A stretch of DNA of 5,612 nt, taken from Methanobacteriota archaeon. Lineage in GTDB: Archaea > Halobacteriota > Methanosarcinia > Methanosarcinales > Methanosarcinaceae. The stretch lies in NCBI GenBank assembly GCA_030837265.1, contig JAUPKV010000449.1, positions 1 through 5,612 of the forward strand, read 5' to 3'. Both the position numbers and the translations under genes were made by a program. The notes below the pieces were generated by a model that ran no database searches, was not told the DNA's origin, and was given only the letters and a program-made list of their open reading frames with translations. This document shows, in pieces, positions 1-5,612 of this stretch; the stretch's first letter is position 1; each line of letters opens with the position of its first letter.

Positions 1-30
1 AGAATGTTATTGCGATCTCATTCGGGATTC

Positions 31-38
31 AAAAATAT
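31..38 (-). terminator. T-run terminator after tRNA-Pyl
   Basis: Immediately after the tRNA 3' end the minus strand reads TATATTTTT. A run of T directly behind a stable tRNA fold is a typical archaeal transcription stop. Weak signal on its own. Confidence 0.4.
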
Positions 39-40
39 AG

Positions 41-109
41 CGGAAACCCCGGGAATCTAACCCGGCTGAATGAATTTAGAGTCCATTTGATCTACATGAT
101 CGGGTTTCC
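41..109 (-). tRNA. pylT: tRNA-Pyl (anticodon CUA), amber-decoding pyrrolysine tRNA, possibly a divergent copy
   Basis: Read on the minus strand this folds into the compact tRNA-Pyl shape: a 7-bp acceptor stem (GGAAACC with GGTTTCC), one base, a 4-bp D stem (GATC/GATC) closing a 5-base loop ATGTA, a single base, a 6-bp anticodon stem (AATGGA/TTCATT, one G-U pair), loop CTCTAAA with anticodon CUA at 79-77, a 3-base variable region, and a 5-bp T stem (CCGGG/CCCGG) around loop TTAGATT. The short D loop, missing D-loop GG, short variable region and unusual T loop are the known hallmarks of Methanosarcina tRNA-Pyl, and most bases match the pylT sequence as I remember it. Differences from memory are C instead of T at position 8, A instead of G before the anticodon stem, and weaker anticodon-stem pairs. 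The bases after discriminator G are CTA, not CCA. A T run follows. pylS would be expected to the left but is outside the window. It may be the main pylT or a second, drifting copy. Confidence 0.88.
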
Positions 110-455
110 TCCAGGAAATAGCATACTGAGTAATTAATTCGAAAGTCTCAAATTTAGCGAATGCTTTGTTTTTAATTGAAGCAGGCAGATCATAAACCAT
201 CGAGGTACAGAATTTGATCTTGTTTCTCCCTGCTGCATAATTATGTACAGTGCCCATGGAGCACAGAATCTGGAATTTGGATATCATTTTAATAGAACTT
301 GAAATATTTAACCTAACGCGTGAAGTTATTTCCAAAAAGAAAAGATATAGCTCTCTACATATGCATTTGAAAAGCAAATTGGTAATTACATAGATAATTA
401 GTTTAGCTCAAGCCAGCTGATTTTTTAATCATATTGAAATTTTCAATGGCATTAA
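110..455. other. AT-rich stretch without a convincing gene
   Basis: A minus-strand frame runs open from 377 to 57 (106 codons), but its last 17 or so codons are the tRNA-Pyl gene, it has no ribosome binding site, and I do not recognise the protein. It contains a stretch around CTSMVYDLPASIKNKAFAKF that looks protein-like, so a relic of an older gene cannot be excluded. A second short open stretch in another minus frame ends at 403 and reads AIINAIENFNMIKKSAGLS. It begins where the nitrogenase-like fragment at 456-665 stops, so it may be a frameshifted continuation or random sequence. Otherwise I see nothing defined. Confidence 0.4.
131..139 (-). promoter_or_regulatory. Candidate TATA box for the tRNA-Pyl gene
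   Basis: The minus strand reads GAATTAATTAC here, centred about 25 bases before the tRNA 5' end at 109, which is where an archaeal TATA box should sit for a start a few bases ahead of the tRNA. No clear BRE is visible next to it. The spacing is right, but AT-rich sequence is common in this region. Confidence 0.33.
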
Positions 456-665
456 TTATCGCACATCGGTTATCATTGAGAACTGGCAAAAAGCATTAAG
501 TGAGCTGCAACCCATGCACTGGCTGAAGTTCCTGACACTATCCCTAAGTTTCCCCGAACGTGAGCACTTTACCAGTTCACCTGCAGTTCCTTCGAAACCG
601 GTAACCGAACCCAGGCGAATTTCACGTACGGGAACACTCGATTCTTTAAGATTTTCTTTATTCAT
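456..665 (-). pseudogene. N-terminal fragment of a nitrogenase component 1-like oxidoreductase
   Basis: The 69-residue product starts MNKENLKESS and carries REIRLGS (residues 14-20), then FEGTAGELVKCSRSG (24-38) and a cysteine-rich block RNFSQCMGCSSLNAFCQFSM (45-64). This resembles the N-terminus of nitrogenase-like NifD/NifE-family proteins found in Methanosarcina, where the block leads into a NHGPVGC-type motif supplying metal-cluster cysteines. Cysteines 34, 50, 53 and 60 are present, but the frame stops at residue 69, just before that second motif. The family is normally several hundred residues, so about 85% is missing. The start is well supported: AGGAG at 672-676 lies 6 bases before the ATG. 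It follows the broken substrate-binding gene on the same strand by 85 bases, so both were probably one operon. The family match is from memory of motifs, without an alignment; a short functional peptide is possible but unlikely. Confidence 0.7.
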
Positions 666-671
666 TCTTGT

Positions 672-676
672 CTCCT
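672..676 (-). promoter_or_regulatory. Shine-Dalgarno site of the nitrogenase-like fragment
   Basis: The minus strand reads AGGAG six bases before ATG at 665. A clean ribosome binding site at this place fixes the start and shows that the 5' end of the gene has survived even though the rest is lost. Confidence 0.65.
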
Positions 677-721
677 AAAAACTGACTATCCTTTGAGTGT
701 TCTCTCACCGTTTCAGTTTTT
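677..721. repeat. Inverted repeat in the gap between the two decayed genes
   Basis: AAAAACTGA (677-685) and TCAGTTTTT (713-721) are perfect 9-base inverted copies separated by 27 bases. As RNA on the minus strand they would form a stem whose base touches the AGGAG ribosome binding site at 672-676, so it could affect access to that site. It could also be a leftover protein-binding site or chance in an AT-rich gap. Confidence 0.4.
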
Positions 722-750: not shown

Positions 751-1571
751 TTACCAGACATTTTTGAATTGATCTGTATATAAATCCGAAACCTTGAACT
801 CACCTGGTTTTATAAGACCTTGAACGGTCATTTCATCCAGCCATGCCTGTAACTGGGACTCATTGATATTTCCGTTGTTACTGTAATAATGAGACACAGC
901 TCCTCCTTCGCACAGCCCGAGCCTTTCGGCTGTTATATTTCCCGCTTCCCGAGGATTTTCGTTGCACCACCGCTCTGACTCCTTATATCCCGTGATGAAC
1001 TTTTCCACAGTCGTCGGATGGGACTGTATAAAGCTTTCCTTACAGAGAAGCAGAGTCATCCCCCCTGCCTCGCCGAGAGCATCCGAGCTGCTTGCAATAG
1101 ATCTTGCATTCAAGCGCTTTTTAGTACACCCACTGTATGCAGGCTGCAATACGGCGATGTCTATAATATTTTCTCTGAGCGCTTGTTGCTGGTTCTCTTC
1201 GGGTATCACCGAGTACTCAATCTTGTCTGCAGGTATCCCGTACTTTCGTAAAAGTGCATTGGTTTGCAAATCGGAACTGCACCCAAGGGCCCCAATTCCT
1301 ACCTTAAGGGTTTGATTAATGTACTTAATTGACTCAAAAGAGGTAAGGTCGCTATCATTAGCTACAATCCAGGACAGGTATTGCTGTTTAGTGTCTCCAT
1401 TCCCGGGTGAGCAAGAGCATAAGGTCTCTGTGTAGCCACGGTCTGCCCTACATCGATATAATCGATACCCTGTTTTTTGAAAAAGTCCTGCTGGTTTCCG
1501 ACGAACCAGGGGGTGCCGGTACAATCGTTTGTCACGCTAGCCCTAAAAGTGTACTTGCTCAAAGGAGCCAT
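751..1571 (-). pseudogene. Broken ABC-transporter substrate-binding protein (NMT1/SsuA-like)
   Basis: The intact family binds nitrate, sulfonates, taurine or thiamine-precursor-like ligands outside the membrane and hands them to an ABC permease. Two frames hold the halves. From ATG at 1571: MAPLSKYTFRASVTND, then TPWFVGNQQDFFKKQGIDYI and VGQTVATQRPYALA, the usual first strand and helix of the fold. Near 1410 the reading must shift by one base to continue as GDTKQQYLSWIVANDSDL, TLKVGIGALGCSSDLQTNAL, HPTTVEKFITGYKE and the end VSDLYTDQFKNVW at TAA 751-753. The family normally has some 30-50 residues between these halves (the GxxD segment), and these are absent, which points to an internal deletion plus a frameshift. 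A stop codon lies two codons upstream of the first ATG, and there is no signal peptide or lipobox, so the N-terminus is lost too. No permease or ATPase gene is in the window. The ligand cannot be told. Confidence 0.82.
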
Positions 1572-1732
1572 GGCTCAGAATTCATTATATAATTTGCTGT
1601 AACCGAAAAGAATAATAGAGAATCAGCTCCGACCCCCAATAAAAACAAAGCATCACAAAAATTCAATAATTAATAAACTTCCATTACATAAACACTTAAT
1701 AATAAGTTCCTTTTTTAGTTATATGGTAACAG
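1572..1732. other. Intergenic region between the decayed transporter gene and rfcL
   Basis: This 161-base AT-rich gap separates two genes pointing away from each other. On the minus strand the TATATAAT-like stretch near 1583-1591 lies too close to the ATG at 1571 to act as its promoter, which agrees with the 5' end of that gene being lost. The plus strand carries the rfcL promoter candidate near 1696-1704. Confidence 0.4.
1696..1704 (+). promoter_or_regulatory. Candidate TATA box of rfcL
   Basis: TTAATAATA is centred about 33 bases before the first rfcL ATG. A start some 25 bases downstream would give a leader of only a few bases, which fits the lack of a good Shine-Dalgarno site before rfcL. 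Inference from spacing only. Confidence 0.35.
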
Positions 1733-3370
1733 ATGATGTCGGCAATTGAATGGGCTGAAAAATACCGTCCCTCAAGTCTCAAAGATATTGTGGGGAATAA
1801 AAAGGCAGTGCATGATTTACGAACCTGGGCAGAGGAGTGGCTTTCAGGTGTACCTGAGAAAAGGGCAGTTGTGCTCGAAGGACCTGCAGGTGTAGGGAAG
1901 ACATCAAGTGCTCATGCCCTTGCCCGAGATATGGGCTGGGAAGTAATTGAACTGAATGCAAGTGATCAGCGGACTGCAGGGGTGATAGAGAAAGTTGCGG
2001 GGTCAGCGGCATCTATGAACACTTTTTTTGGAGGAAAACGTCTGATTATCCTGGACGAAGCGGATAATCTACACGGGAGTGCGGATAGAGGCGGGATGCG
2101 GTCGATTGCAGTTATCATAAAGACTGCACTTCAGCCGATAGTGTTGATTGTAAATGACGTTTATGGGTTGACTCCAACTATCCGGGATCTGTGCCTGGAG
2201 ATAAAGTTCGGATCAGTGCAGAGTCGTTCTATGATACCTGCATTGAAGAAAATATGTGATAGTGAAGGGATTTCGTGCAGCATAGATGCAATACAGCAGA
2301 TTGCAGAAAACGCCGGGGGTGACCTCCGGAGTGCAGTCAACGACCTTCAAGCTGCAGCTTGCGGAAAGGAAGTGCTGGAAGTTGGAGATATCAGCACCGC
2401 TGTTAGGGATGTAAAAGAAAATATTTTCAAGGCAATGCAAAGGATATTCAAGAGCACTGATTGTAAAAAGGCACTCGAGGTCACACGAGGGATTGATGAA
2501 AGCCCTGAAGACCTGATCCACTGGATCGACGAAAACCTGCCTATCCAGTATGCGAGTAAAGACGGTGACCTTGGAGATATTCAAACCGGATTTGACTATC
2601 TTTCAAAGGCTGACCTCTATCTGGGGCGCGTAAAGAAGCGCCAGAACTATCACATGTGGAGGTATGCCAGCATGCTGATGGTCTGTGGAGCCGCAATCTC
2701 GAAAACCAGGCCTTATCCGGGGTTTATCAAGTATCAGCAGCCTTCTCTATGGAAAAGGCTTGGACAGACTCGTTCAAAGCGAGATCTAAGGGATAATATT
2801 GCTTCTAAAATTGGAGAACACAGCTTTGAGTCCATACGCTATTCCCGAGGCCGCCTTATGGAGATTTATTCCAGAATGGTAAAAGATGAAAGAGCTGCAA
2901 TTGAAGTAACTGCAGATCTCGGGCTTGACCTTGAAGAGTTGATGTACCTTTCCGGGAGCACAAAACCCAGCAAAAAGCTGCAAAAAATCTACGAAGAAGC
3001 ACAGGAACTGTACCGTACAGGTAGTGATGAATCCAGAAAAGAAGTAGAGTTTTTCATAGCTCCTGCTACATCCCGTACTATGTCAGAAAATGAGACGCAA
3101 AACCCACTTAGCTCTATATTTAAACCTCCTGAGAAAGAAGATAAAATATTAACCGGGAAACCTGAAACTCCCAATCCCCAGGCTTCTAAAAGCAAGTTGA
3201 AAACCCGCAAATCGACATTAGACTTATCCCCTGAACCTTCCGGAGAAATAAAGAAATTAGAAAGTGCTAAGAAAGTCTCTGAACCTAAACCTACAAATCC
3301 GGAAGCTGATGACGAGAAAGCATTGAAAAAAGCAGAGTCGAAAACCCAAAAATCACTTTTCGACTTTTAG
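1733..3370 (+). CDS. rfcL: Replication factor C large subunit (clamp loader)
   Basis: RfcL joins small RFC subunits in the AAA+ clamp loader that opens the PCNA ring and places it on primed DNA. In the 545-residue product I see the RFC YRP box (11-13), Walker A GPAGVGKT (50-57), NASDQR (75-80), Walker B LIILDEAD (104-111), a sensor-1 asparagine in IVND (about 141) and the sensor-2 motif [12 protein letters not shown] (195-206). A helical collar domain follows to about residue 440. The tail from about 445 is charged and rich in Ser, Pro and Lys, probably disordered, and ends in QKSLFDF (539-545), a PCNA-binding PIP box. A stop at 1727-1729 limits the start to ATG 1733 or 1736; no strong ribosome binding site is seen. 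The stop is TAG at 3368-3370, overlapping the stop of convergent nadM by four bases. Length and motifs are normal for euryarchaea, so the assignment is secure. Confidence 0.97.
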
Positions 3371-3888
3371 AGAGGTGAATTTCCATCGCTTGCAGATACA
3401 TTCCTGAGACGAGATACTCCATCAATCTCTTTGATCGATTCTGCGATAGGTTTTGGAACGAGGTGTTCCCATTTTTCGCCAGCAATCATTCGTCTTCGGA
3501 TTTCTGTACCAGAATATGTTTCTCGGACGTAAAGAGGTGATTCTTTTACGCAAAAACCGGCTTCTCTGAAAAGCTGGATGACCAATGGGTTATTTGAGTA
3601 TACAACATGAAATTTGGGTGTACGGGATGCGACATGATGAACCCAGATAGAATTGTATCTGACGTCTTCAATAGGGAGGACATAGTGGCGAATAGGGAGG
3701 CTTTCAAGTGCATTGTAAATCATTAGCACTCTTTCTCCTGCAGTAAAAGGATCAGTAGCTTCATGACTTTTCTGGGCGCTTCCAATGCCTATTACCAGTT
3801 CGTCAACCTCTTCTGCAATGCGAGTAATTACAGCGTGGTGGCCAAAATGATACGGTTGAAAACGCCCAATATAGAAAGCTCGTATCAT
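3367..3888 (-). CDS. nadM: Archaeal nicotinamide-nucleotide adenylyltransferase (NMNAT)
   Basis: The enzyme joins NMN and ATP to give NAD+ and pyrophosphate, the last shared step of NAD synthesis, in the cytoplasm. The 173-residue protein has the nucleotidyltransferase start [18 protein letters not shown] with the HxGH signature at residues 14-17, the [17 protein letters not shown] segment (37-53), VYSNNPLV (96-103) and the C-terminal phosphate-binding YSGTEIRRR (125-133). All expected catalytic motifs are present and the length is typical of archaeal NMNATs. I chose ATG 3888 over TTG 3900: the TTG directly abuts the AAGGAG site at 3901-3906, while the ATG lies 12 bases beyond it and begins the conserved strand. 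The gene has its own BRE/TATA-like promoter and converges with rfcL, sharing the bases TTAG at the stops. It lies 218 bases downstream of mer on the same strand, but a hairpin between them suggests separate transcripts. Confidence 0.95.
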
Positions 3889-3900
3889 TCCAGATACCAA

Positions 3901-4106: not shown

Positions 4107-5096
<990 letters not shown>

Positions 5097-5164: not shown

Positions 5165-5200
5165 GATCATCAATATTCATTATAATGAATATTGATGATC
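5165..5200. promoter_or_regulatory. Perfect 36-bp palindrome in the mer leader
   Basis: The half site GATCATCAATATTCATTA (5165-5182) is followed directly by its exact reverse complement (5183-5200), with no mismatch. It lies 72 to 107 bases before the mer start. As RNA it would form about 16 bp with a 4-base loop; as DNA it is a symmetric operator-like site. If the TATA box at 5226-5233 is used, the palindrome sits at the very 5' end of the mRNA. A dimeric regulator site, a 5' stabilising hairpin or an attenuator are all possible. Confidence 0.75.
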
Positions 5201-5540: not shown

Positions 5541-5612
5541 CAGATTACTATAAGATTTTGATCTTGAAGAGAGAACTTTTTGATATTGATTGCAGCATTG
5601 ATATCTCTATCA
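5435..5612 (-). pseudogene. tnpB: TnpB C-terminal fragment with in-frame TGA
   Basis: TnpB is an RNA-guided nuclease, ancestor of Cas12, that helps its insertion sequence persist. The visible part reads DRDINAAINIKKFSLQDQNL; the DRDxNAA motif carries the last catalytic aspartate of the RuvC domain. The frame stops at TGA 5542-5540, yet beyond it the same frame stays open for 34 codons (HLWNTGDELGDLRTVVRGMN, then HEAPSSKPSRRRRF) up to TAG 5437-5435. This tail resembles the usual C-terminal tails of Methanosarcina TnpB-like transposases as I recall them (a QEA-type ending). So the TGA may be a recent nonsense mutation, for example from CGA. Alternatively the protein naturally ends at TGA and the rest is conserved as guide RNA. 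Catalytic residues shown are intact, so loss of activity is not certain. Most of the gene lies right of the window. Confidence 0.72.

Follow-up and report, generated by a model that had tools for sequence, protein, structure and literature searches.

Does the tRNA-Pyl gene (pylT) found upstream of the replication factor gene rfcL in a member of the Methanosarcinaceae still serve to decode UAG, or is it a displaced copy in the course of being lost? The question was raised by a 5,612-nucleotide stretch of DNA (contig JAUPKV010000449.1 of assembly GCA_030837265.1), the whole of which is referred to here as the window. A tree of rfcL and mer, which took in 16 genomes and an outgroup, placed the window beside Methanosarcina sp. 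Chersky.3_35 (G001, a 2.8-Mb MAG; bootstrap 99) and then Methanosarcina sp. Ant1 (G002, 94).

ARAGORN called a single tRNA in the window, a tRNA-Pyl with a CTA anticodon (CUA in the RNA) at 40-109 on the minus strand, which bore out the initial annotation, whose interval of 31-139 was slightly wide. The covariance check that it had proposed was carried out with a model, R1, built from 12 pylT sequences of the family with the window left out, and the model accepted the fold with 95.0 bits (E 1.1e-29). Applied to 16 other pylT genes, several of them in the model, R1 gave 94.0-102.3 bits for 15, the ordinary Methanosarcina-type genes of L101, L114, L118 and L120 scoring 101.4-102.3 bits. The remaining gene, at 82.4 bits, was the diverged second copy of L140 (G110:C41), in which two pylT lie ~730 bp apart and the second has 79% identity to the query; an identical pylT pair, with starts 198 bp apart and a run of N between, was also seen in L060/L126 (G018:C43) and is perhaps a scaffolding artefact. 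A scan of the window against Rfam up to E 1 gave no match, and Rfam thus speaks neither for nor against the call. All 22 cloverleaf pairs of the window tRNA are standard pairs, and it has the family cloverleaf, in which the anticodon stem is 6 bp long, position 8 is a single base, the D loop has five bases and the variable loop three, together with the discriminator base G (aligned gene position 69) that is invariant across 99 family rows. By sequence and fold the gene is a genuine tRNAPyl. A hint of DUF7187 in an open reading frame at 57-377 was rejected, as its score lay under the gathering cut-off and it had no homologues; of 111 genomes, 12 gave DUF7187 matches, and every match overlapped pylT, indicating that the tRNA itself had been read as protein.

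The gene is nevertheless not a typical member of its genus. It has at most 94% identity to Methanosarcina pylT and differs from the consensus at 4 of 70 bases, whereas among 30 Methanosarcina-type rows 22 show no difference, seven show one and a single row shows two. The changes, in gene numbering, are T8C, G22A (the base before the anticodon stem), and C37T and G39A (both in the anticodon stem), and the gene ends in CTA in place of CCA; the unusual bases had been listed correctly in the initial annotation when set against the genus consensus. Its further idea, that a changed core could alter the decoding of UAG, is weakened, since 3, 25 and 11 of the 99 family rows have C8, A22 and A39, respectively, and none has T37. 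T37 makes a G-U out of the G-C at pair 27-37, a weakened pair unique to the window, and the energy of the anticodon arm is -0.5 kcal/mol, compared with -3.0 in 75 of the 99 rows and -2.2 or lower in 98. When four random transitions were introduced, 2.9% of trials left no broken pair and gave at least three family states; for four random substitutions of any kind the figure was 0.2%. As 11 of the 99 rows encode no CCA, CTA alone is no proof of decay. Divergence at fourfold sites between the window and G001 is 0.53, half of which, taken over 70 nt, would correspond to ~18 neutral changes on the window branch since the split; as only four were found, any relaxation of selection would have to be recent.

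Homology to ordinary Methanosarcina pylT loci covers the tRNA and all 39 nt of its 3' flank (1-39, minus strand) up to the window edge. On alignment this flank, in which CCA reads CTA, corresponds to the pylT-pylS leader, and more changes were found in its otherwise near-invariant element. This element, TTTCTGAATCCCGGAATGG, lies between pylT and pylS in Methanosarcina, for example in L113. Its first 17 nt carry no change or one in 13 loci of the subgroup and two changes in the window, and just after these 17 nt the window reads GAATG against GGAATGG in the same 13 loci. The flank is of the CATATTT type, as in the relatives of the window by rfcL. In 29 Methanosarcina-type loci pylS starts 181-254 nt past pylT (the first copy of the G018 tandem, at 425 nt, was left out). 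Given a flank homologous to the leader, pylS would be expected just beyond the left end of the window, and it is possible that it lies directly to the left of this pylT.

On the other side of the tRNA the likeness breaks off. The upstream region was compared with the 29 Methanosarcina-type loci that have long flanks, drawn from 96 family genomes with a pylT match and grouped partly by similarity. A conserved element of the type CCAATAAACATATATATTAAA lies ~100 nt upstream of pylT in all 29 (200-nt alignment). In the 27 loci matched by pattern it starts 74-115 nt before the tRNA, at 96-106 in 25 of them, and a promoter matrix scored these native sites at 25.4-37.3; L102 and L118 carry variant elements with scores of 29.3 and 19.5. 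No match to the element was found in the 600 nt upstream of the window tRNA (110-709, minus strand), the best score being -11.5, where shuffled sequence had a median of -8.7. Most local alignments with canonical loci stop at 109-129, which points to a rearrangement breakpoint at about that place and would leave 110-129 (minus strand) as a small leftover of the native 5' flank; two low-identity matches run further, that of L087 to 142 and that of L074 to 174. The element was also present in the near outgroup L135 (score 31.6), while many family loci of other genera score near or below zero on the matrix, L132 as low as -16.7, and their pylT are preceded by other upstream sequences. The element is thus a feature of the genus Methanosarcina, not common to all pylT, and its loss does not mean that there is no promoter.

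The position of the gene is as unusual as its upstream sequence. The gene rfcL (1733-3370, plus strand; NF003231, 871 bits), for the large subunit of replication factor C, is followed by nadM, for nicotinamide-nucleotide adenylyltransferase (3367-3900, minus; TIGR01527), and by mer, for 5,10-methylenetetrahydromethanopterin reductase (4107-5093, minus; TIGR03555, 570 bits), which indeed lies ~4 kb from the tRNA, as had been stated earlier. By tblastn, mer was found near rfcL, as in the window, only in L001 (G001) and L002 (G002) among the rfcL loci, sequence extending at least 3.5 kb past the rfcL match in 14 of the 19 closest loci and 2.2 kb, mer included, in L001. Ahead of rfcL a conserved region occupies 1686-1732 (plus strand), homology to relatives beginning at 1654-1702 depending on the relative. 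Within the DNA covered, none of 58 rfcL loci had pylT beside rfcL (25 were also scanned with ARAGORN); of the 19 closest loci, 16 were covered for 2 kb or more upstream of rfcL, the sister locus L001 for only 743 bp. Four relatives inspected (L002, L003, L009 and L011) have divergent genes upstream of rfcL, which are mtrH and mtxX by NCBIfam in L002 and alike by sequence start in the other three, and none of these genes was found there in the window or in the 743 bp of G001. These 58 loci, and the point just before the tRNA at which likeness to other pylT loci ends, support the initial suggestion of a relocated pyl locus. At the far end of the window a perfect 36-nt palindrome lies upstream of mer (5165-5200), possibly a regulator site or hairpin. 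The last residues of an open reading frame, DRDINAAINIKKFSLQDQNLIVI (5543-5611, minus), resemble the C-terminal end of the TnpB proteins that IS200/IS605 elements encode; this 23-aa tail at the right edge gave no Pfam match. An RfcL with 98% identity to that of the window (P0001) sits on a 20.9-kb ENA contig.

Between pylT and rfcL lies a decayed gene for an SsuA/NMT1-like substrate-binding protein (753-1560, minus strand), from which ~97 bp have been deleted at 1411 and the N-terminus is missing; a decayed accessory gene at this place had been proposed from the sequence, and the proposal holds. The remnant has 86% protein identity over 221 residues to an intact frame of 338 aa in G001, where the intact gene (L202, G001:C448) adjoins a glycyl radical enzyme gene split over several frames. 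Neither Pfam nor NCBIfam gave a match for a small open reading frame at 456-665. A perfect 14-nt inverted repeat, with arms at 161-174 and 1640-1653, encloses most of the DNA that separates pylT from rfcL, and any such 14-nt inverted pair turned up in 2 of 300 shuffles.

The sister genome offered a view of the rest of the pyl system. The pylS of G001 (L179, contig C148) has an in-frame TAG and an in-frame TAA, and pylBCD do not follow it directly; in the place where pylB would be expected there is a frame-broken gene, presumably mtbA-like. Searches of G001 with the models for PylB, PylC and PylD gave only weak matches (21.3, 28.9 and 20.0 bits), all well short of the cut-off. A score below cut-off is not in itself absence, since PylB also falls short of it in G010 and G011, where the gene is fragmented. 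MtbB and MtmB were searched for in G001 and not found; even G002 and G003, in which pyl genes are retained, have MtbB only in fragments, and its absence from G001 is therefore weak evidence. A pylT relic was sought in G001 with the covariance model and the idea was rejected, the sole match being a tRNA-Cys; as the pylS contig ends inside pylS, the pylT of G001 may lie outside the sequence covered. Intact PylS proteins occur within the clade (P0121, P0123, P0125, P0128 and P0132), with P0128, which was considered as a candidate for the PylS of the window species itself, sister to the broken PylS of G001. Loss of pyl is thus not clade-wide, and what has happened in G001 does not carry over automatically to the window. 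Among other relatives, G099 and G100 were without pylT at E 0.001, without PylS over cut-off and without MtbB and MtmB, and may be further losses or incomplete genomes.

The use of UAG as a stop was less informative. In both the window and G001 rfcL ends in TAG, compared with TAA in 16 and TGA in one of 18 other rfcL loci, the last of which (L016) has TAG only after a masked stretch; the shared TAG is suggestive at most. TAG stops in the sampled G001 DNA, taken as a possible sign of UAG reassignment, were not raised: TAG ended 7 of 103 genes there, compared with 16 of 360 for G002, G095 and G003 (Fisher p 0.31); with genes of at least 250 aa the counts were 2 of 64 and 9 of 244. For G099 and G100, which have no pyl, 5 of 54 against the same 16 of 360 gave p 0.17, and genes of at least 250 aa gave p 0.065, in small samples of lower GC.

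We favour, with about even confidence, the reading that the window holds the pylT of Methanosarcina, original or duplicated, which was relocated and cut from the promoter of its genus and is drifting, most likely as a recent relic. Formerly the tRNA would have decoded amber codons in the ordinary way, with PylS to charge it. A rearrangement would have moved it, or a copy that kept 39 nt or more of the pylT-pylS leader, to the region upstream of rfcL, with a break within ~20 nt of the mature tRNA that split it from the conserved element. Once displaced it would probably have had little or no expression, and drift would then have produced the four base changes, the change of CCA to CTA and the changes in the 3' element. 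The sequence itself shows the identity of the gene, its homology, the missing element, the base changes and the unusual position; from these, reduced expression, relaxed selection and the status of a relic are inferred. The gene may derive from a pyl locus in the course of loss, as in G001, or from a duplicate. We lean to a relic because the element found in all 29 Methanosarcina-type loci and in L135 is absent here, because four changes stand against none to two in 30 rows, with T37 in no family row and so weak an arm, and because the neighbouring gene is decayed, the pylS of G001 is broken with weak PylB, PylC and PylD matches, and rfcL ends in TAG in both. Counted against a relic are the 22 pairs that are all kept and three of four changes that are family states, an outcome reached in few of the transition trials, as well as the genus-specific nature of the matrix, the recency of any relaxation, the intact PylS nearby and TAG stops that are not raised in G001. 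The initial idea of a pseudo-tRNA is in keeping with the loss of the usual promoter element, the raised substitution and the decay nearby, and at odds with the intact fold; it is plausible and stops short of proof.

A working pylT, relocated together with pylSBCD and served by a different promoter, with its base changes being variants tolerated in the lineage, is a serious competitor, to which we give appreciable but lesser credence. It would account for a 3' flank that is colinear with the leader up to the window edge, where pylS would follow at its usual distance, for an intact fold with three changes known from other members of the family and an end without CCA as in 11 of 99 rows, and for the intact PylS of relatives. 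Genes upstream of pylT differ among relatives, and other genera place other sequences there. What it explains poorly is the lack of a genus-type element within 600 nt, and more changes than in any of the 30 genus rows, with a weak pair 27-37 found nowhere else. An assembly chimera upstream of the tRNA, by which a pyl locus was joined to an rfcL contig, might be suggested by the sharp break, the high conservation of pylT between strains and the position of the tRNA at the window edge, but is improbable, as the diverged tRNA and 3' flank would have had to come from a pylT donor just as unusual, and the CATATTT-type flank matches the rfcL relatives of the window.

The relic reading has precedents. 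The window gene resembles the pylT of the Methanosarcina pylTSBCD cluster in its 94% identical tRNA, its architecture and its homologous 3' flank, and differs from it in lying beside rfcL without the promoter element, in four substitutions and in CTA for CCA. A third pylT of Methanomassiliicoccus luminyensis, isolated from the main cluster, was judged a likely pseudogene (PMC3941956); it lacks the typical tRNA stem-loops, whereas the fold in the window is intact, and it is an extra copy, whereas one copy is known from the 5,612 nt of the window. Lokiarchaeia and Thorarchaeia, as described in PMC9723677, keep tRNAPyl where the pyl cluster is lacking, and it was proposed to be a remnant; these belong to another phylum, whereas the window may record a recent loss within the genus Methanosarcina. 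MAGs of peatland Methanosarcinales are described, in passages that make no mention of pylT or the pyl cluster, as having genes only for methylated oxygen compounds and no methylamine methyltransferase genes (PMC10805028), which G001 also seems to lack. Remnants and pseudogenes of pylT are thus already on record in these sources (PMC3941956, PMC9723677), and a possible recent loss within Methanosarcina would be the interesting part; titles and the beginnings of abstracts in our literature search held no pyl loss or displaced pylT within that genus. It is conceivable, though rather unlikely, that we see a Methanosarcina lineage midway in dismantling pyrrolysine decoding, with pylT displaced and drifting, the pylS of G001 ridden with stops and without recognisable biosynthetic genes, and UAG back as an ordinary rfcL stop in both.

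As Methanosarcina pylT is almost invariant, with 22 of 30 rows identical, a displaced copy that is changing offers a natural test of which of its bases matter, and also of the order in which an expansion of the genetic code is lost. Should the pyl locus be in decay here too, as in G001, a clade that also holds intact PylS would offer closely related lineages before, during and after the loss of the 22nd amino acid.
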